Shown here piece after piece: positions 7,766 to 62,502 of a DNA stretch of 64,000 bases. Both the position numbers and the translations under genes were made by a program. A model generated the notes under the pieces. The model searched no databases. It saw only the letters and a list, made by a program, of their open reading frames with translations, and had not been told where the DNA came from. Origin of the DNA: Neisseria animalis (GTDB lineage Bacteria > Pseudomonadota > Gammaproteobacteria > Burkholderiales > Neisseriaceae); NCBI RefSeq assembly GCF_900636515.1, contig NZ_LR134287.1, forward strand, positions 992,001 to 1,056,000, read 5' to 3'. How positions within the stretch are numbered: the stretch's first letter is position 1; every line of letters begins with the position of its first letter.

Positions 7766-7872
7766 TATAGTCATTTAAAATAAGAATGATACAGCGTTGC
7801 TTTGCCTTGCCGTACTATGTGTACTGTCTGCGGCTTCGCTGCCTTGTCTCATTCTTATTTTATTCGACTATA
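7766..7872 (+). repeat. Short Correia-type MITE, 107 bp, intact copy
   Basis: The element runs from TATAGTCATTTAAAATAAG to TTATTTTATTCGACTATA with imperfect terminal inverted repeats. Its inner part (CCGTACTATGTGTACTGTC, CGGCTTCGCTGCCTTGTC) matches the known right half of Neisseria CREE. Near-identical copies lie at 10392, 54722 (inverted), 55085 and 61691. Confidence 0.88.
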
Positions 7873-10391: not shown

Positions 10392-10498
10392 TATGGTCAT
10401 TTAAAATAAGAATGATACAGCGTTGCTTTGCCTTGCCGTACTATGTGTACTGTCTGCGGCTTCGCTGCCTTGTCTCATTCTTATTTTATTCGACTATA
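10392..10498 (+). repeat. Short Correia-type MITE, 107 bp
   Basis: It is the same element as at 7766, with one change in the left terminal repeat (TATGGTC instead of TATAGTC), and ends CGACTATA. It is inserted within the older CREE remnant. Confidence 0.85.
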
Positions 10499-28140: not shown

Positions 28141-28383
28141 CTACAGCTTGTTTGCCATTCGGTAGGGTGCATGCCGAAGCATGCACGCGTTGCATAATGG
28201 GACAGGGAAAGGTTCAAACCGAAGGTGGCAAATCAAATCGGCAAGTCATTTAAATCAAAACAAATATGCCGTCTGAAAATGTTTCAGACGGCATAAGAGC
28301 CAAGCCCGACCGACGCATGCATGCAAGGGCATGCGCCCTACGCGGGGAATTTGGCGTTCCATGCAGGCTGCGGCGTGTTGATA
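28141..28383 (+). repeat. ~240-bp intergenic repeat, copy 1
   Basis: From CTACAGCTTGTTTGCCATTC to CATGCAGGCTGCGGC this stretch matches 38679-38921 over its whole length, at roughly 85% by eye. It contains GCATGCCGAAGCATGC palindromes, an inverted DUS pair (ATGCCGTCTGAAAA with its complement) and CCCTACGCGGGGAATTT. No open frame is conserved between the copies. The rest of the 27951-28491 gene-free stretch shows only the AGGCAGCCTGAA site at 28443. Confidence 0.8.
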
Positions 28384-38678: not shown

Positions 38679-38921
38679 CCTACAGCTTGTTTGCCATTCG
38701 GTAGCGGCATGCCGAAGCATGCACGCGTTGTATGATGGAACAGCGAAAAGTTCAAACCGAAGATGGTAAATGCAATCGACAAGCCATTGAAATCAAAATA
38801 AACATGCCGTCTGAAAGTATTTCAGGCGGCATAATCACAAAGCCCGACGAACGCGTGCATGCAGGGGCATGCATCCTACGCGGGGAATTTAGCATTCTAT
38901 GCAGGCTACGGCTTGCTACGG
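38679..38921 (+). repeat. ~240-bp intergenic repeat, copy 2
   Basis: It is the partner of 28141-28383: CTACAGCTTGTTTGCCATTC at the left, a central ATGCCGTCTGAAA pair with TTTCAGGCGGCAT, GCATGCATCCTACGCGGGG, and CATGCAGGCTACGGC at the right. It ends 10 bp before the AIPR stop codon. Confidence 0.8.
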
Positions 38922-54066: not shown

Positions 54067-54600
54067 ATGGATTTGAAAGAAACCAGACTTTCCGGCGAAC
54101 CGATTTATCAGGGTTCGTTTATCACCATCAGCCGTGACCAAGTGCGGCTGCCAAACGGCAATGAAAGCAGCCGTATCGTTATCCGCCATCCGGGTGCAGC
54201 GTGCATATTGGCCGTTACCGATAATGACGAGGTCGTCTTGGTACGGCAATGGCGTTATGCCGCCGATCAAGCCATATTGGAATTGCCGGCCGGCAAGCTG
54301 GATAAGGGCGAAGACCCTGCCGAGTGTGCATTGCGCGAATTGGCAGAAGAAACCCCTTATACCGCAGACAAAGTAAAACTATTGCATACATTCTATACGG
54401 CAGTCGGTTTTTGTGATGAAAAAATGTACCTCTACCAAGCCGAGGGCGTGCGATTGGGCAGTACTTTGAGTAATGATGAAGACGAAATTACCGAAACCGT
54501 TTTAATGAGTCGCGAAGCCGTGAAACAAGCATTGCAAAACAACGAAATCCAAGACGGAAAAACCTTGGCAGGTTTGCAATATTGGTTATTGAACAGTTAA
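54067..54600 (+). CDS. Nudix hydrolase, ADP-ribose pyrophosphatase-like
   Basis: The 177-aa protein has the Nudix box GKLDKGEDPAECALRELAEE, followed by TPY where the consensus has xG, and the upstream ELPAGKLD typical of ADP-ribose pyrophosphatases (NudF/YqiE). QWRYAADQAILELPAG matches that subgroup. It likely cleaves ADP-ribose to AMP and ribose 5-phosphate. Start at ATG with a GGAG site. The stretch after it to 55084 has no gene, only a CREE at 54722. Confidence 0.9.
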   Translation: MDLKETRLSGEPIYQGSFITISRDQVRLPNGNESSRIVIRHPGAACILAVTDNDEVVLVRQWRYAADQAILELPAGKLDKGEDPAECALRELAEETPYTADKVKLLHTFYTAVGFCDEKMYLYQAEGVRLGSTLSNDEDEITETVLMSREAVKQALQNNEIQDGKTLAGLQYWLLNS

Positions 54601-54721: not shown

Positions 54722-54828
54722 TATAGTCGAATAAAATAAGAATGAGACAAGGCAGCGAAGCCGCAGACAGTACACATAGTACGGCAAGGCAAAGCAACGC
54801 TGTATCATTCTTATTTTAAATGACTATA
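54722..54828 (-). repeat. Short Correia-type MITE, 107 bp, minus orientation
   Basis: It is the exact inverse of the 7766 element, from TATAGTCGAATAAAATAAG to TTATTTTAAATGACTATA. It lies 256 bp from an opposite copy at 55085. The remaining gene-free sequence 54601-54721 and 54829-55084 shows no other recognisable feature. Confidence 0.88.
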
Positions 54829-55084
54829 ACACAAAACCATGTTGTTGCTTCAGGTAAAAGCATGACTTCAATCAAATCATCAGACGCATTGCACGATTCG
54901 TCCGCCAGATATAAAAAACGCCGCTTGGAAAACAAGTGGCGTTTTGTATAACGTCCGAAACACATCAAGCCAAGTTTGAAACCAATCTGAAAAAGTATCC
55001 CGAACCATCTGTTTTCCGGTCGGTTTTATTCAACAAACATCAAAGGCTGTTTTGCCCGAATCAGCCTGTTGATTAAATGAAAAG

Positions 55085-55191
55085 TATAGTCATTTAAAAT
55101 AAGAATGATACAGCGTTGCTTTGCCTTGCCGTACTATGTGTACTGTCTGCGGCTTCGCTGCCTTGTCTCATTCTTATTTTATTCGACTATA
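55085..55191 (+). repeat. Short CREE at the left junction of the phage gene
   Basis: The intact 107-bp element ends CGACTATA at 55191, and phage coding sequence (NADLLALEQEYTARRRGE) begins at the next base in an open frame. A near-identical copy in the same orientation lies at the other end (61691). Confidence 0.9.
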
Positions 55192-55994
55192 ATGCGGATT
55201 TACTGGCATTGGAGCAGGAATATACTGCCCGCCGCCGTGGAGAAACCCGCGAGGATTACGACAAGCGTGTAGCGGAGACGGCGGATAAGTTCGGGCAAGC
55301 GGTGGCAAAAACCAACCGCAAATACGATGATTTTACCGGCCGGCTGATGGCTGATGTCCGTTCGGGCAAGGGGGTATGGAGCTGCGATTCGGAATACGAG
55401 CAGTTTGCACGCATGGTAACGGCGGGGCAGTTTATGCCGTCTGATACGGCGGCGCAGGGTGTGCCGCAGCGCAACCGTGATGCTTCGGCAGTAGCTCCCG
55501 TAGAAACACAGGCTGCCATATTGCAAGGCGCGCCGGTATCAGTGCTTTCCGATACGGATTTGGCGGTTCCTGTTCCAAAGAGCGGCGGTATCAAGGCGGT
55601 GGTGGATTGGGCAGCGGACTTGTTCCGGCAATGGGGTAATGCGGCAGTCAATCCGATAATCGGCAGAGTGGAATTGAAACGGCGTTCGGCAAAAGACAGT
55701 TTGGCGCACGGCAAGTTTAATCCGGCTAAAAATTTGGCTTTTGCCGGGGTAAAAGATGTGCTTGAAAAAGGTGTGGTGGTTGCGGAAGACAGCAACGAAC
55801 AGGGCGAAAAGAGTTTTTATATTTCCGCACCGGTTATGATGAACGACAAGCAGAATGTGGTAACGGCATTGGTTCACCGCGACCCCAATACGCAGAGACT
55901 CTATTTGCACAGCGTTTCATTAAAAGAAAATCTGCTGAAACCCGAGTATCCGGCACCCTTGGGAAATCTTCCCGCACGCACTCCGGCTCACTGA
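55116..55994 (+). CDS. Phage polyvalent protein, N-terminal fragment (5' end replaced by a CREE)
   Basis: True coding homology begins at 55192; the first 25 residues from a TTG at 55116 are read through the CREE. Residues 26-120 are charged and helical (EQEYTARRRGETREDYDKRV). About 130-275 is a domain with NAAVNPIIGRVELKRRSAKDS, FYISAPVMMNDKQNVVTALV and RLYLHSVSLKENLL. This domain recurs in the downstream fragment (59328-59750). It resembles the polyvalent-protein-associated/BECR-nuclease-like domains of MuF-type phage proteins. The frame ends in TGA at 55992, while the natural continuation is one base back in frame, beginning near a G-GGA-AAT heptamer (55961-55967). It was probably one gene with 56030-61708. 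Confidence 0.7.
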   Translation: MLCLAVLCVLSAASLPCLILILFDYNADLLALEQEYTARRRGETREDYDKRVAETADKFGQAVAKTNRKYDDFTGRLMADVRSGKGVWSCDSEYEQFARMVTAGQFMPSDTAAQGVPQRNRDASAVAPVETQAAILQGAPVSVLSDTDLAVPVPKSGGIKAVVDWAADLFRQWGNAAVNPIIGRVELKRRSAKDSLAHGKFNPAKNLAFAGVKDVLEKGVVVAEDSNEQGEKSFYISAPVMMNDKQNVVTALVHRDPNTQRLYLHSVSLKENLLKPEYPAPLGNLPARTPAH

Positions 55995-56029
55995 CTTCAG
56001 CAGATATTCACAATGTACTACAAACCGCA

Positions 56030-59000
56030 TTGACCTACAAGCGGGGCAACACCACCCCTACCGACCTGCCGACCGACCGTATCGCACCGACCGCCCGCGA
56101 GCGGGCAGCGGCGGCAAGCACGCAGACGGGGCGTGTGGTGGCAGGCAAAGCCGACAGCGTGGACGTATCGGGCAGATATGAGCCGGTAGTGTGGGAATTG
56201 CGCGAAGCTTCCGATATGGGGGCAACGGTAAGCAAAGCAGAGAACCAATACCGTGACCGTAACCGTGCAGCCAGCGAGCAGCAAATCAACCATATTGCGG
56301 CAAACTTGGATTTCCGCAAAATCAGCGAATCGCCGTTTATGGATTTCGGCGCACCGGTATTGGCCAAAGACGGAGAAACCGTTATCGGCGGCAACGGGCG
56401 CGTGGCGGCGGTGAAACAGGCGTATGCTCAAGGTACGGCAGAAAACTACCGGCAGCAGCTTGCCGAACATGCGGCGGATTTCGGCTTTACCCCCGAAACC
56501 GTGGCAGCATTCGAACAGCCGGTATTGGTACGCCGTCTGCAAAACGATGTGGACATCAAAAAAGCAGCAATTGCTTCCAACGAAGGCGCAGGCTTGGCCA
56601 TGAGCAGTTTGGAACTGGCCAAAACCGATGCTTCGCGTCTGCCGCCGTTGCAGCTTTTTACGCATAACGAAAGCGGCAGTTTGAACACCCCTGCCAACCG
56701 CAGCGCGATTGCCCAATTTGTCGGCAATTTCCCGCAAAACCAACAGGCAGCCTTGCAGGACGCAAACGGTATGCTTTCGCGCGAAGGATTGCGCCGTTTG
56801 GAAAACGCCATGCTGTATCAGGCATACGGCGACAGCCCCGCTTTGCAGCGCATGGTGGAAAGCAACGACGTAGAAAGCCGCAATGTGGGCAACGCCTTGG
56901 CGCAATCGGCGGGCGTGGTGGCCGATGCGCGCAACGATATGGCTTATGGCGACTTGTACGATTTGGATATTGCGGCCGACTTGGTACAGGCGGCAGATTT
57001 GATTGAGTCGTTGCGTTCGCAGGGGCGCAGCGTGCAGGATTATTTGGCACAGCAGGACTTTGCCGATACCGTGGGCGATACGGCGAAAATGTTGCTGGCG
57101 TATCTGGACGGCAATATCCGCAGCGCGAAAAAAATCCGCGATTTGATACACGCCTATTACGGCGAAGTCCGCGCATTGGGCAATCCCAAAGAAGGGGATA
57201 TGTTCGGCGGAAACGATACGGTAACACGACAACAGCTATTGAGAAAGGCTATTCATGAGCAATCGGGAGACTTTGGAACAGAAACGCAACCGGGAAATAC
57301 GGGAGCGGATGCAGACGGCGAAACAGGCAACGGCCGGGCAGCAGAAGCAGGCTCTGATGAGGCTGATTTACAATCTGGAACACAATCCGCAGATGGCGCA
57401 GGCGATGGAAGCGGCGTTGAAACGGTTGGCGGGGCGGTAAGGCCGCAAGAGACGGACGGGGATTATCTTGCCGATGATGAGGCAATGACGGATGCGGAGC
57501 AGGAAGAGTTGTACAACTCGGTAATGTTCAGCCGTTCGGCGATGAAAGACACACAGGCGAATATCCGGCGCGGGCGTGAAAGCATGAACCGTGCGATTGT
57601 GGAAAAAGCAGATGTGCACCGTGCGATGTACCGCCAAGATTTGGGTTGGGTGGATTTTGTTTGGGGTAGTGAAGGCCGTCTAAAACCAAACAATAAAACA
57701 GTCGGTGCGATGGGCTTGGCGCATATTATTGAATCGCGTATGCGTAAAGATGATATGAGCTATAACGATGTTGTGGAAATGTTGACCGAACGTGTGGTGG
57801 ATACCATTGCGAAAGGGCATGATTCACAAATTACAGAAAGTGGAAAATCCAAGCGGGTATTTGTTGAATATAACGGAAACCGTGCAACGCTGGTTAAGCA
57901 TACAGGAAGCAACAGTTGGTTGATGAATGCGTTTGAGTTGCGATCAGACGATGATGCGGCGAGGAGTAACGATTCAACCGAACCTACGCACAACAAGCCT
58001 ACACGTCATCGTCAAGTTGTGGGAGCGTCTGTCGCTGATTCCAATGTACGCGCAAATGATGTTGATGTCAATGAAATCCACACCCGTTTGCGCCGTGCAT
58101 TGGGCGGCGAACGGGCGGCTTTGGTGCGGGTAGTGGATTCCAAAACCGCTTTTCCCAAGGATTGGGAAGCCATCATAGCGGGCGGTATCGAGGGCAGCTT
58201 TAACCGCAAGACGGGCGAACTGTATCTTTTTGCCGACAACCTGACCCCGGAGCGGGCGGTATGGGTGGCTTGGCATGAGCTGGGGCACAGGGGTTTTGCG
58301 GTAAAAGGCAGCCGCGAATACCTGAATACGCTGGATTTGCTGGGGCGCAATGAAACGGTGGCGAAGATGGCAGACAGAATCCAACGGTTGCGACGCGATA
58401 CGAACGATGCGGCGGCAACGGTACGCAGCGTGGCGGTGGAAGAAGCGGTTGTGGAACTGTATGCGGCACAGCAAACAGGCAACTGGGCGGAAATCGAGAC
58501 GCGCTACGGGGTGGAAATTTCAGACAGCCTGAAACGCCGTGCGGGTAATTGGTTGAAACGGATTGCCGAAACCTTGCGCCGTGTGTGGGCGATGGCAACG
58601 GGCAGACGAGAGGTTTCCGATCGCGAGGTGCTGGAAGCCTTGGCGGATATTCATCGGGATAATACGGCCGAATTGGACGGGGATTTGGGCGGAGATGTGC
58701 TGTTTTCCAAATACAGCGATGATGCGGATAAAGTGAATCGTGCGTTTGAAATCATGACAGAACCGTTTGGGGACAGGTTTATCGTAAGCAGAGATTCTTC
58801 GCGTATCAGCAATTCAGAATATGTTGAGATTTACGATGCGGAAAATGATGAAGGTTTTAAAGTACGCGTTTCCGACCATTCTTTGCCTGCTCATCATCGT
58901 AATCCTTATGAAGCGAAGTTTGAAGTATTTCCGCGCGGCGGCAAGGATACCAACAGTCGCGGTGAAGATGCGAAGTGGCATACCGACGGCAGTTGGGTGG

Positions 59001-61708
59001 AAGCGGTTGAAAAGGCGGCAGAAATGTTCGGATTGGAAATTCCGCCGCATGTGAAAGCGGTTAAAACCCGCATGGAGAGAAAGGCGGAGCAGGGGGAACA
59101 AAGCAAACCTGCAAGAAAAGCAGCCAAACGTAATCCGAACGCCAAGCGGATTAAGGAATTGAAGGCGCGTATTGCCCAATACGAGGAGATGATTTCGTGG
59201 AATCAGGGCGAATCGGAAGCGGCGGTAAGCAACCGTAAGTATTTTAGCGAACGCATTGCTGAATTTAAGGCTGAAATGGAATCGCTTCAGGATTCGGGCA
59301 GTCGGTTCAGCCGTTCGCATGATGCGGATTTTGCACGCAAGGCGGCGGTGTTGCAGGGAGAGCCGGTGGCAGTTATCAGCGAACGGAAAGCTCCACAAGG
59401 ATTTAAGGCTTTAAGGGAATGGGCTGCAGGCCTGTTTAAACAGGCGGGTGGTGCGGCAGTTAATCCTGAAGTTGGAGAGATTGCATTAAATGAGCGGGCT
59501 GTTCGTGACTCCATTGCACACGGAATGAATCCGTTTAAGGCAGAAGCATTTGCTGTTGTTCCGGAAGTGATTGAACAAGGTGTAGTTATCCATCAGGGCA
59601 GAAATCCTGATAATGGTGCGGAGTATGTTTATATCAGCGCACCAGTGATGATAGAAGGGAAAGATGATGTGGTTACGCTGCTGGCAAGAAATACGGGCAG
59701 CGGCAGACAGATGTATCTGCATAGTGTGGTTACAAAAGAAAGTATCCTGAATGCCAGTGATACCGAGACGGCTGTAATCAGCCGCGAAACGGGGAAGGTC
59801 AATTCAGGATACATAGCCAATATACTCCGTAATTATCTGAATTACAAGCCTGAAACGGAAAACAGTCTTTCCGATATGCGTTTTTCCCGTGCTGACTTGA
59901 TGACGGAAGAGCAGGTGCGGGAGTTTGCCGAAACGGGGGAAATGCCGCCGTCTGATTCGGTGTGGCAGGATATGCAGCAGGCTTATCGCGACGAGCAGGT
60001 GCGCGGGCGGTTGAAAGACGGAATCGTCAGCAAGAAAGACAAGCTGCTGGAAGCGGTGGAAGATGCGGCCATTCAATTGAAACGCTGGGCGGACGGTCTG
60101 CCTGATTTGGTGGCCGATGCGCCGATGCGCCAGCTTTTGGAACAGGCTTTCCGCCGCGCGCCGAATATGCGTAATGCGAAGAATCAGGAAATTCAGGTGC
60201 GTTTTGTAACGCCGCTGAATAAGGAATTGTCGCGTTTGCAGAAAAAGTACAAGGGCAAGAGCTTGGTTGAGCTGAAAAACCTTGTCGGCTATTGGATGAG
60301 CGCGAAGTATGCGCCGACAGCCAACAAGCGGCTGATTGAGCGGGCAGAAGCCAAGGTTGAAGAGGCGAAGGCGGCGTTGGCGAAAAAGGAAACGGCGGCG
60401 AATAAGGCGGCTTTGACCCGCGCGGAGAAGGAACTGGCGGAATACCGCGCGTCCATCAGCGGTAAGAAGCAGGGCAAGACGGCGGGCGGTTTCTCTAATC
60501 CTGTGGCGGCCAAGGTTAAGGCGGATATTGAGCAGCATATCGAGCTTGCGGACTTGGAGGCGGTGGCCGGCCATGTACGGGGTATGCTGGACTTTGCGCT
60601 GGACTTGGATTTGGAAAGCGGTATGATTTCCAAGGAGATGTATGATGAATTTAAGGTAAACGTGGATTATGTGCCGTTTACGGGCAATCCTTACGACCCG
60701 CTGAACGGCAGCGATGATGAACGCGATGTGTTGTTCGGCGGCGGCAGCGGGATTAATCAGGCGCGCGACAAGCAGATGAAAGGCCGTGTTTCGATGGCGC
60801 AAAACGGTATTGATGCGGCGTTCGGCAGGGTGGCGAAATCCACGGCCAACTACGGCTATGCGGATTTCAAGAACAAGCTGAATACGGTGTATGAGCGTGC
60901 GCTGCGCCATTATCTTGATATGGGGCTTGATGAGCATGAGGCCAAGAAGCGCGTGGCGGAGGAAATCGGCATTGCGCGCGCGGCGCGTTCGCCGTTTTCG
61001 CGCAATACGGACAATGTGATTTTTCATAAGGTAGACGGGCGTGATGTGGAGTTTTCGTTGCGCCCTGCGGTGATGGCGGGGATTGTGAATGCGAACCGCG
61101 AAGAAGTGCCGTCTTTTGTAAAACCGGTTCAGGGATTTACGCGGCTGTATGCGCGCGGGGTAACGCAATTTGCGCCGGCTTTTGCGCCGATGAATGCTTT
61201 CCGTGATATTTGGGAAAAAACGGAGATGATCCGGGTAATGGAAGGCTGGAACGAACAAGGCGGAAAGGTGGATATGGATAAGGTGGCGCGGCAGGCTTGG
61301 GCGAATTTTACGAAGTCTGCACCGACAACGTTTAATGCGGCGTGGAAGGGGGATTTTTCAGGGAAGGACGGCAAGCTGCTGAAGCAGTTTTTGGATTTGG
61401 GCGGGGTATCGACTTACGGGACGATGCTGGCGAAGACGGAAACGGATATGCTCAAGCATGTGGCAAGGGAAAGCGGTACGGCTTTGTCTGTGCTGAAAAA
61501 GGGTGTGGAAAGGGTTGAGCAGTACAATCAGATGTTTGATTTGATGCCGGGCTTTTCGCTGTTTAAGGCGTTGACCGACAACGGGGTATCGGCGGAGGCG
61601 GCGGCGGTATCGCCGTCTGAAATTTCGGCGGCGAAGTATCTGGGGGCGAAGCTGGCGATGACGGTTACGCCGACGGTTTTTCAGCCGAATTATAGTCATT
61701 TAAAATAA
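56030..61708 (+). CDS. Giant phage polyvalent protein (ParB-like, nuclease-like and zincin domains), 3' end truncated by a CREE
   Basis: This 1,892-residue frame (the TTG start is arbitrary; coding sequence continues upstream to about 55967) strings together domains of phage polyvalent proteins. A DdrB-like ParB-fold region (about 35-330) has FMDFGAPVLAKDG and GGNGRVAAVKQ. A BECR-type nuclease-like region (about 495-640) has RVFVEYNGNRATLVKHTGSN. A zinc metallopeptidase has HELGH at 749-753 and EEAVVELYA after it. A coiled coil lies near 1040-1090, and a second copy of the domain in the upstream fragment at 1100-1240. A long helical C-terminal part follows. Such proteins are injected by phages to counter host functions. 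The frame ends inside a CREE (PTVFQPN then YSHLK), so the true C-terminus is lost. No other phage gene is nearby. Confidence 0.75.
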   Translation: MTYKRGNTTPTDLPTDRIAPTARERAAAASTQTGRVVAGKADSVDVSGRYEPVVWELREASDMGATVSKAENQYRDRNRAASEQQINHIAANLDFRKISESPFMDFGAPVLAKDGETVIGGNGRVAAVKQAYAQGTAENYRQQLAEHAADFGFTPETVAAFEQPVLVRRLQNDVDIKKAAIASNEGAGLAMSSLELAKTDASRLPPLQLFTHNESGSLNTPANRSAIAQFVGNFPQNQQAALQDANGMLSREGLRRLENAMLYQAYGDSPALQRMVESNDVESRNVGNALAQSAGVVADARNDMAYGDLYDLDIAADLVQAADLIESLRSQGRSVQDYLAQQDFADTVGDTAKMLLAYLDGNIRSAKKIRDLIHAYYGEVRALGNPKEGDMFGGNDTVTRQQLLRKAIHEQSGDFGTETQPGNTGADADGETGNGRAAEAGSDEADLQSGTQSADGAGDGSGVETVGGAVRPQETDGDYLADDEAMTDAEQEELYNSVMFSRSAMKDTQANIRRGRESMNRAIVEKADVHRAMYRQDLGWVDFVWGSEGRLKPNNKTVGAMGLAHIIESRMRKDDMSYNDVVEMLTERVVDTIAKGHDSQITESGKSKRVFVEYNGNRATLVKHTGSNSWLMNAFELRSDDDAARSNDSTEPTHNKPTRHRQVVGASVADSNVRANDVDVNEIHTRLRRALGGERAALVRVVDSKTAFPKDWEAIIAGGIEGSFNRKTGELYLFADNLTPERAVWVAWHELGHRGFAVKGSREYLNTLDLLGRNETVAKMADRIQRLRRDTNDAAATVRSVAVEEAVVELYAAQQTGNWAEIETRYGVEISDSLKRRAGNWLKRIAETLRRVWAMATGRREVSDREVLEALADIHRDNTAELDGDLGGDVLFSKYSDDADKVNRAFEIMTEPFGDRFIVSRDSSRISNSEYVEIYDAENDEGFKVRVSDHSLPAHHRNPYEAKFEVFPRGGKDTNSRGEDAKWHTDGSWVEAVEKAAEMFGLEIPPHVKAVKTRMERKAEQGEQSKPARKAAKRNPNAKRIKELKARIAQYEEMISWNQGESEAAVSNRKYFSERIAEFKAEMESLQDSGSRFSRSHDADFARKAAVLQGEPVAVISERKAPQGFKALREWAAGLFKQAGGAAVNPEVGEIALNERAVRDSIAHGMNPFKAEAFAVVPEVIEQGVVIHQGRNPDNGAEYVYISAPVMIEGKDDVVTLLARNTGSGRQMYLHSVVTKESILNASDTETAVISRETGKVNSGYIANILRNYLNYKPETENSLSDMRFSRADLMTEEQVREFAETGEMPPSDSVWQDMQQAYRDEQVRGRLKDGIVSKKDKLLEAVEDAAIQLKRWADGLPDLVADAPMRQLLEQAFRRAPNMRNAKNQEIQVRFVTPLNKELSRLQKKYKGKSLVELKNLVGYWMSAKYAPTANKRLIERAEAKVEEAKAALAKKETAANKAALTRAEKELAEYRASISGKKQGKTAGGFSNPVAAKVKADIEQHIELADLEAVAGHVRGMLDFALDLDLESGMISKEMYDEFKVNVDYVPFTGNPYDPLNGSDDERDVLFGGGSGINQARDKQMKGRVSMAQNGIDAAFGRVAKSTANYGYADFKNKLNTVYERALRHYLDMGLDEHEAKKRVAEEIGIARAARSPFSRNTDNVIFHKVDGRDVEFSLRPAVMAGIVNANREEVPSFVKPVQGFTRLYARGVTQFAPAFAPMNAFRDIWEKTEMIRVMEGWNEQGGKVDMDKVARQAWANFTKSAPTTFNAAWKGDFSGKDGKLLKQFLDLGGVSTYGTMLAKTETDMLKHVARESGTALSVLKKGVERVEQYNQMFDLMPGFSLFKALTDNGVSAEAAAVSPSEISAAKYLGAKLAMTVTPTVFQPNYSHLK

Positions 61709-61797
61709 GAATGCTACAGCGTTGCTTTGCCTTGCCGTACTATGTGTACTGTCTGCGGCTTCGCTGCCTTGTCTCATTCTTATTTTATTCGACTATA
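61691..61797 (+). repeat. Short CREE at the right junction of the phage gene
   Basis: The 107-bp element differs from the 55085 copy at one position seen (AATGCTACAG for AATGATACAG) and supplies the stop codon of the phage frame. Orientation is the same as at 55085, making a direct repeat around 6.5 kb. Confidence 0.9.
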
Positions 61798-61863: not shown

Positions 61864-62502
61864 TTATTTCAATAATGCCGGAGCAAAACGCAGTATGGTA
61901 TCGCGCAGGGCGATCAGTTTGCCGTGGAAGAAATGTGATGAGCCGGCAAGGGTGATAACGGGTAAGTTTTGCGGCTCCGCCCATGACAGGGCTTTGCTGA
62001 TTTCGACAACTTCGTCTTCAGCACCGTGAATGAGCAGTGTTTTGGCTACATCGGGAACGGCTTGCGGCTCGGGGCGGTTGGTGTAGTGGTGAACGGCAGG
62101 TCCCAGCAGCAGCAGCAGGTCGGGCGTGCGTTGTTGTGCGGCGAAGGTGGCAACGTAACCGCCGAATGAAAAACCGGCCAGTGCAAATTCGGGCGAGTCG
62201 GGGTGTTGTGCGCGGGCATAGTCGATAACGGCGATGCAGTCGTCTGTTTCGCCTTTGCCGTAATCGTGTGTGCCTTGGCTGTTGCCGACACCGCGCAGAT
62301 TGGGCAGATAGCAGTGAAAACCCAGTTGGGTTAAGGCTTTGGCTGCGGTTTGAATAACTTTGTTGGTATAGGTGCCGCCTTGCAGGGGATTGGGGTGATT
62401 GATGACGGCGACACCGCGTTCCTGACCTTGTGCGGGCAGGTAAATGGTTTCGAGCAGGCCGGCAGGGCCGGAAATGTTGATGATGTCAGGTTTGTTGAGC
62501 AT
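61864..62502 (-). CDS. Alpha/beta hydrolase (small dienelactone-hydrolase-like)
   Basis: The 212-aa protein has the nucleophile elbow GFSFGGYVA, the early oxyanion segment NHPNPLQGGTYTNKV, the Asp in LLIHGAEDEVV and the His in GSSHFFHGK, completing a Ser-Asp-His triad. It belongs to the YpfH/YtmA-like group of short hydrolases conserved in beta- and gammaproteobacteria; the substrate is unknown. It is followed on the minus strand by a DUS terminator and preceded by the Smr gene. Confidence 0.85.
   Translation of the reverse strand: MLNKPDIINISGPAGLLETIYLPAQGQERGVAVINHPNPLQGGTYTNKVIQTAAKALTQLGFHCYLPNLRGVGNSQGTHDYGKGETDDCIAVIDYARAQHPDSPEFALAGFSFGGYVATFAAQQRTPDLLLLLGPAVHHYTNRPEPQAVPDVAKTLLIHGAEDEVVEISKALSWAEPQNLPVITLAGSSHFFHGKLIALRDTILRFAPALLK

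Follow-up and report, generated by a model that had tools for sequence, protein, structure and literature searches.

A piece of a large polyvalent phage gene, truncated at both ends and broken in frame, lies in the chromosome of Neisseria animalis between two co-oriented copies of a 107-bp repeat, and our analysis suggests, with a probability that we put at about 0.52, that it is the relic of the polyvalent gene of a second phage, which would have been excised and placed by recombination between repeats and would have exchanged sequence with a related copy resident in the same genome. What the locus most likely illustrates is the cutting, moving and reshuffling of phage genes by repeats rather than a new kind of element. 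The window, i.e., the whole stretch of DNA that was analysed, comprises 64 kb and corresponds to genome positions 992001-1056000, the genome being a single contig with a length of 2,240,945 bases; the features discussed are collected in Table 1.

Table 1. Features at and around the repeat-bounded phage gene piece (window positions).
Feature	Position	Strand	Remarks
NUDIX hydrolase gene, left neighbour	54067-54600	+	Pfam PF00293
Correia-like repeat, inverted	54722-54828	-	letter-identical to left border copy
AT-rich piece between inverted and left border repeats	54829-55084		256 bp, 40.6% GC; no origin found
Correia-like repeat, left border	55085-55191	+	107 bp
Truncated, broken polyvalent phage gene	55192-61690	+	residues ~357-2679 of resident protein
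Diverged tract 1	55192-56054	+	9 mismatches in first ~290 bp, then LPD3 vs resident PBECR3; frame breaks here
Identical tract (DdrB-ParB region)	56055-57458	+	1,404 bp, vs resident copy
Diverged tract 2	57459-58403	+	PBECR1 nuclease-like module vs resident MuF_C
Identical tract (includes LPD3 domain)	58404-61607	+	3,204 bp, vs resident copy
Diverged right end	61597-61690	+	5 mismatches and a gap in 97-bp match running 3 bp into repeat; after 423-bp in-frame deletion
Correia-like repeat, right border	61691-61797	+	rare C24 variant; 33-base word exact at 3 genome places
alpha/beta hydrolase gene, right neighbour	61864-62502	-	Pfam scan

The earlier note had described a piece of a giant phage gene that starts at the base after one repeat and ends at the base before another, with both repeats in the same orientation and almost identical. 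Comparison bore this out: the gene piece begins at 55192 and ends at 61690, directly abutting the repeats on either side, and the two border copies are co-oriented and differ at the single position 24 (A/C). Two further copies occur elsewhere in the window (7766-7872 and 10392-10498). The third copy close to the piece, which is inverted and separated from the left border repeat by 256 bp, was absent from the earlier note. Throughout the genome, the common end sequence of the repeat is matched 296 times in forward and 295 times in reverse orientation (at most one mismatch), and from these end-sequence counts the copy number is about 295. At least 40 copies are 100% identical to the left border repeat over all 107 bp (among the 41 matches listed; best 40 of 337 candidates), and because of these letter-identical copies the repeat family looks as if it had spread recently in this genome.

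The identification of the repeats as CREE, as the earlier note had it, holds in part. Their length falls within the published CREE classes (104-108 or 153-157 bp; excerpts of PMC2649163), and their termini, TATAG...CTATA, provide the TA ends expected from the insertion of CREE at TA (excerpts of PMC2649163 and PMC1431543). The end sequences, on the other hand, deviate from the four Correia query sequences of PMC9778887 by 9-14 mismatches per 28-29 positions in ungapped comparison, beyond the up to 3 mismatches in Correia repeat ends that were tolerated there. As length and TA ends fit but the end sequences differ, we refer to the repeats as Correia-like and not as CREE. By eye, the motif GACAA at the inner edge of the repeat is common to two of the four published queries. 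Beyond this motif, the core may resemble that of CREE.

The junctions between repeats and gene piece are informative because a resident relative of the gene is present in the same genome. Homology to this relative starts at the TA of the left repeat and stops at the right repeat, and the outer sides of the border repeats do not match the resident gene. The earlier note had proposed a comparison of TA target sites. At the left breakpoint, the resident allele reads GATGCG[TA]ATGCGG, and the repeat in the window has TA as its last two letters, followed by ATGCGG. At the right breakpoint, the resident sequence CAGCCGAT-TA-TGCAG is met in the window by CAGCCGAAT-TA followed by the repeat; the base beside the TA differs here (CCGAAT-TA vs. 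CCGAT-TA in the resident allele) and the match is thus less exact than on the left. The outer junctions of the border repeats carry TA as well. Since the resident gene offers a TA exactly where the left repeat begins to interrupt the homology, and a less exact one on the right, the repeats look inserted in the phage gene, and the simplest reading is that both of them entered the gene itself at TA sites. The earlier note had considered that the repeats acted as composite ends, or as handles that let transformed phage DNA enter between copies already present in the chromosome. The general notion of composite ends or handles finds partial support in the exact boundaries, the co-orientation and the failure to find further fragments of the gene elsewhere in the genome; entry between pre-existing chromosomal copies is insufficient alone, since the resident TA, exact on the left and one base off on the right, points to repeats that were already in the phage gene. 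With about 295 copies in the genome, the chance that a breakpoint placed at random lies no more than 2 bp from the end of a repeat is p~0.0013, and for both ends it is ~1.7e-6, which is a post-hoc estimate.

The C24 variant of the right border repeat is found at two other places in the genome, one of them 7.1 kb downstream of the right repeat and in the same orientation. It may be a mark of kinship among repeats and does not tell the models apart. As a pointer to an exchange partner it decided nothing: the 120-base flanks of the other two C24 copies, inspected by eye, contained no phage sequence.

The enclosed piece is 6,499 bp long and derives from a polyvalent (ParB/nuclease) phage gene. Pfam domains were found in two reading frames: the left open frame encodes LPD3, and the main frame encodes DdrB-ParB, PBECR1 and LPD3, so that several domains above curated cut-offs reside on one polypeptide, as is the case for phage polyvalent proteins. 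The left frame closes at 55994, and the main one, open from at least 56030, is a different frame. Near the right end of the piece, a stretch of 423 bp (141 codons, in frame) is absent at a short repeat. At this site, the protein encoded in genome G029 aligns with the resident protein without a large gap (957 vs. 952 residues), and the absence is therefore taken as a deletion in the window copy. Start, end and frame are all lost. The window copy is thus no intact open gene in a virion gene cluster, and a whole protein is probably not made from it. That both gene ends are missing, as stated before, is evident from the fact that the piece covers only part of a protein of 2,890 amino acids. Elsewhere in the genome, remnants of the N-terminal (residues 1-356) or C-terminal part (from residue ~2681) were not detected; all nine of nine candidates scored with the resident protein. 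Fragments of the phage gene that could represent a reciprocal product were likewise sought and none emerged, neither among the best 40 of 670, the best 40 of 747 and the best 5 of 99 candidates nor, finally, among all nine of nine. DNA-uptake sequences were counted in the form of four 12-base words and their 10-base cores. The piece contains none of the four 12-base words and three matches to the 10-base cores, and two 12-base words are located just outside its right border.

The resident relative is an unbroken reading frame for the 2,890-residue protein at genome positions 1113573-1122245; it starts 60 kb downstream of the point at which the window piece ends on the right. All matches of the genome to this protein are accounted for by the resident gene itself and by the window piece. 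Its Pfam domains are PBECR3, DdrB-ParB, MuF_C, LPD3 and LPD38. The frame is open throughout and is situated near structural genes, within a prophage remnant that furthermore comprises an excisionase-like gene, KilA-N and a BrnT/BrnA toxin-antitoxin pair (L022:3573-14085). A copy of the repeat (97% identity, one gap) is found 1.9 kb upstream of the resident gene. The designation of the window gene as an orphan consequently applies to its immediate neighbourhood, in which no phage gene was found among the six genes scanned, and not to the genome, which harbours the fuller copy outside the window. As a separate observation, window positions 28155-28372 and 38694-38918 are ~80% identical to genome positions 1105374-1106088, near the edge of the prophage remnant.

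When the piece is aligned with the resident gene, a mosaic becomes apparent (Table 1). The two identical tracts do not contain a single mismatch over 1,404 and 3,204 bp, vs. a divergence of ~3.6% (26/719) in the alignable parts of the diverged tracts, and at that rate ~4,600 identical bases are out of the question. Mismatches amount to 9 in the left 293 bp, 12 in the 331 bp from 58073 and 5 plus a gap in the last 97 bp; three more lie at 57459-57480 and one at 56054. The two stretches between the tracts that align poorly encode different domains in window and resident gene. On the strength of the sharp switches in identity and the differing modules, the alignment is read as recent recombination of two related, differing gene versions around their modules.

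In genome G065, a related protein aligns with the window piece in register over 1,355 columns with 50% identity, and it carries LPD3 (two stretches), ParB and PBECR1 domains (2,048 of 2,118 residues scanned). Because this protein is in register with LPD3, ParB and PBECR1, the order of modules in the window appears to be a natural one. Within 40 kb around the gene in G065, no match to the repeat was found, and the corresponding 40 kb in G029 yielded one partial match of 54 bp. Searches with the protein of the window against genome contigs and viral contigs returned no named relative. With a four-row alignment as the query, there was no named relative among the genome contigs, and four distant loci (44-47%) were retrieved from the viral contigs. 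Phage records contained no match to the piece at the DNA level; at the protein level 69 of 50,697 matched, all with less than 60% identity. The best of these is Pasteurella phage Pmp11, in which a stretch of ~7 kb at the end of the genome is annotated as similar to a hypothetical protein.

The chromosomal setting was addressed by scanning six neighbours (HemX/HemD, HemY, HemE, NUDIX, alpha/beta hydrolase, Smr), none of which is a phage gene. Within the bounds of these six genes, the earlier statement that other phage genes are missing nearby is substantiated, and the genes of a complete prophage (integrase, terminase, capsid and the like) were not found among them. Gene order at the interval was compared by alignment in 10 genomes. 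Among the 45 other genomes of the genus, five (G009, G012, G027, G035 and G063) have the NUDIX and hydrolase genes side by side, with 87-151 bp between the matches; HemE or Smr was found in none of these five within the ~1.5 kb beside the pair. In the nearest relative at the flanking genes, G034 (80-84% identity), HemE adjoins NUDIX and the hydrolase gene adjoins Smr on two different contigs. Beyond the matches, the sequence continues for 383 bp on one of them and for 124 bp on the other, such that it breaks off near the interval on either side; we read these points as contig ends. Between the NUDIX and the hydrolase genes, the relatives are too diverged for an empty site or a target duplication to be read from them. 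Of the AT-rich piece of 256 bp on the left, only a single weak match of 73 bp exists, in G034, i.e., in 1 of the 45 other genomes. Taken from these comparisons of gene order, an insertion between the NUDIX and the hydrolase genes is likely, not proved.

Under our preferred model, in which the piece is what remains of another phage's gene after recombination between repeats, two Correia-like repeats would first have entered TA sites within that gene, both pointing the same way. Homologous recombination between repeat copies would then have left only the stretch between the repeats at the NUDIX-hydrolase interval, and it could have done so in two ways. Either recombination between the direct repeats set free a circle that carried a single repeat and then entered a repeat already present at the interval, or a linear fragment with both repeats, possibly taken up through transformation, recombined with a chromosomal repeat. 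Both routes would produce the order repeat-piece-repeat in direct orientation, with phage DNA on the inner and chromosomal DNA on the outer sides. Later, the piece may have exchanged sequence with the resident prophage copy, or it may have arisen already as a mosaic through phage recombination. Exchange would halt at modules without homology, leaving different modules between identical backbones; this is the pattern displayed by the alignment, and its direction and timing are conjectural.

In favour of this reading we count the resident TA at the breakpoints, the absence of gene remnants, the sharp switches in identity and the natural order of modules. The co-orientation of the border repeats also speaks for it, since excision and integration or recombination at handles require direct repeats, and about 295 copies offer ample recombination partners. 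Published CREE-mediated inversion and the association of CREE with deletion (excerpts of PMC3454330 and PMC2649163) are in line with it. Several points count against it. A donor with two repeats in its polyvalent gene was not found in the 40-kb surroundings of the G065 and G029 genes, the lack of HemE and Smr beside the five NUDIX-hydrolase pairs leaves the ancestral order of the interval unproved, the closest relative is 80-84% identical at the flanks and its draft is split at the interval, a base beside the TA at the right breakpoint does not match, and pieces of 120 bp and 256 bp on the left are left out of account.

Alternatively, a prophage between the NUDIX and the hydrolase genes, with repeats within and flanking it, might have decayed in place, two repeat-by-repeat deletions leaving the middle of the gene. 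The resident copy itself sits in a prophage remnant, the chromosomal outer flanks agree with such a course, and an association of CREE with deletions is on record (excerpts of PMC2649163). We nevertheless regard decay in place as unlikely, as more events are needed (integration, four repeats, two deletions), the six scanned neighbours are not phage genes and the co-orientation of the borders would be a one-in-two coincidence. The earlier note had named as the sign of simple decay of a resident phage a complete prophage, at the same site in relatives, in which this gene has these repeat ends. Such a prophage was not found, but the flanking genes of even the closest relative show 80-84% identity, and none of the relatives is decisive.

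Composite transposition, in which an enzyme would act on the outermost repeat ends and move the repeat-gene-repeat unit into a TA, appears rather improbable. Two element copies do bound other DNA here as in a composite transposon, TA is present at the outer junctions and the at least 40 letter-identical repeats (from the best 40 of 337 candidates) are indicative of recent movement. In addition, units composed of two miniature elements have been demonstrated in Pseudomonas (TIME-COMP; excerpts of PMC4133298), and stretches between homologous MITEs can be mobilised according to a review (excerpts of PMC10969869). Direct orientation is not required for this process and hence not predicted by it, the mechanism by which CREE are mobilised had not been established according to PMC2649163, and a search of the genome for transposases of the DDE_Tnp_1 family (PF01609), the one family covered, found none. 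A more speculative reading, to which we attach little credence, would make the piece between the repeats a mobile and silent store of cassettes that could be excised at the direct repeats, be inserted at any of the ~295 copies and trade nuclease-like modules (PBECR1 and LPD3 vs. PBECR3 and MuF_C) with the resident gene via the identical backbones. A mis-join of the assembly at near-identical 107-bp repeats is very improbable: ~295 copies could mislead an assembler and the draft of the nearest relative stops close to both sides of the interval, but the genome is one contig and a mis-join would be expected to leave the missing ends of the gene elsewhere, where none were found.

Known systems share individual traits with this locus. 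Excerpts of the literature on Neisseria connect CREE with inverted and deleted stretches, with disrupted genes and with a prophage region (PMC3454330, PMC2649163, PMC9778887); both inversion mediated by CREE and an association of CREE with deletion are on record (PMC3454330, PMC2649163). Such rearrangements resemble our case in having short TA-ended repeats at breakpoints, full-length repeats at junctions and insertions into genes and a prophage region; here, in contrast, a single internal part of a phage gene is enclosed by two co-oriented repeats, whose ends differ from published Correia sequences. As described in the excerpt of PMC4133298, TIME-COMP likewise consists of a DNA stretch between two copies of a miniature element, which are co-oriented in TIME-COMP2 too. 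TIMEs, however, are derived from Tn3 and their mobilisation was demonstrated, whereas movement in our case is deduced from the arrangement and lacks a known transposase. The phage polyvalent proteins in the excerpt of PMC5512222 possess the same PBECR, DdrB-ParB, LPD3 and MuF-C domains, and orthologous polyvalent proteins are extensively rearranged in Helicobacter phages. Unlike those, two versions exist here in one genome, one of them broken and bounded by repeats, with identical backbones and different modules. In the listed titles and abstract openings on Correia elements (Neisseria, prophage, recombination, composite transposon) and on MITE composites, we did not encounter part of a phage gene enclosed by a pair of these repeats, which does not establish its absence from print.

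If confirmed, the locus would document at the sequence level that Correia-like repeats move or carve out foreign DNA, beyond their adding promoters or breaking genes, and it would tie together, in one strain, the mobilisation of enclosed DNA by repeats and the swapping of polyvalent-protein modules on an identical backbone. It also holds a warning for annotation, as a phage gene that seems to be an orphan may have been cut by repeats out of another phage.

One element in another genome suggests that several Correia-like families with common cores and changing ends exist in the genus. Upstream of the hydrolase gene in genome G002 (locus L096), an element with a similar core and different ends (TATAGTCGTTTCAATTTAG...) was seen by eye.
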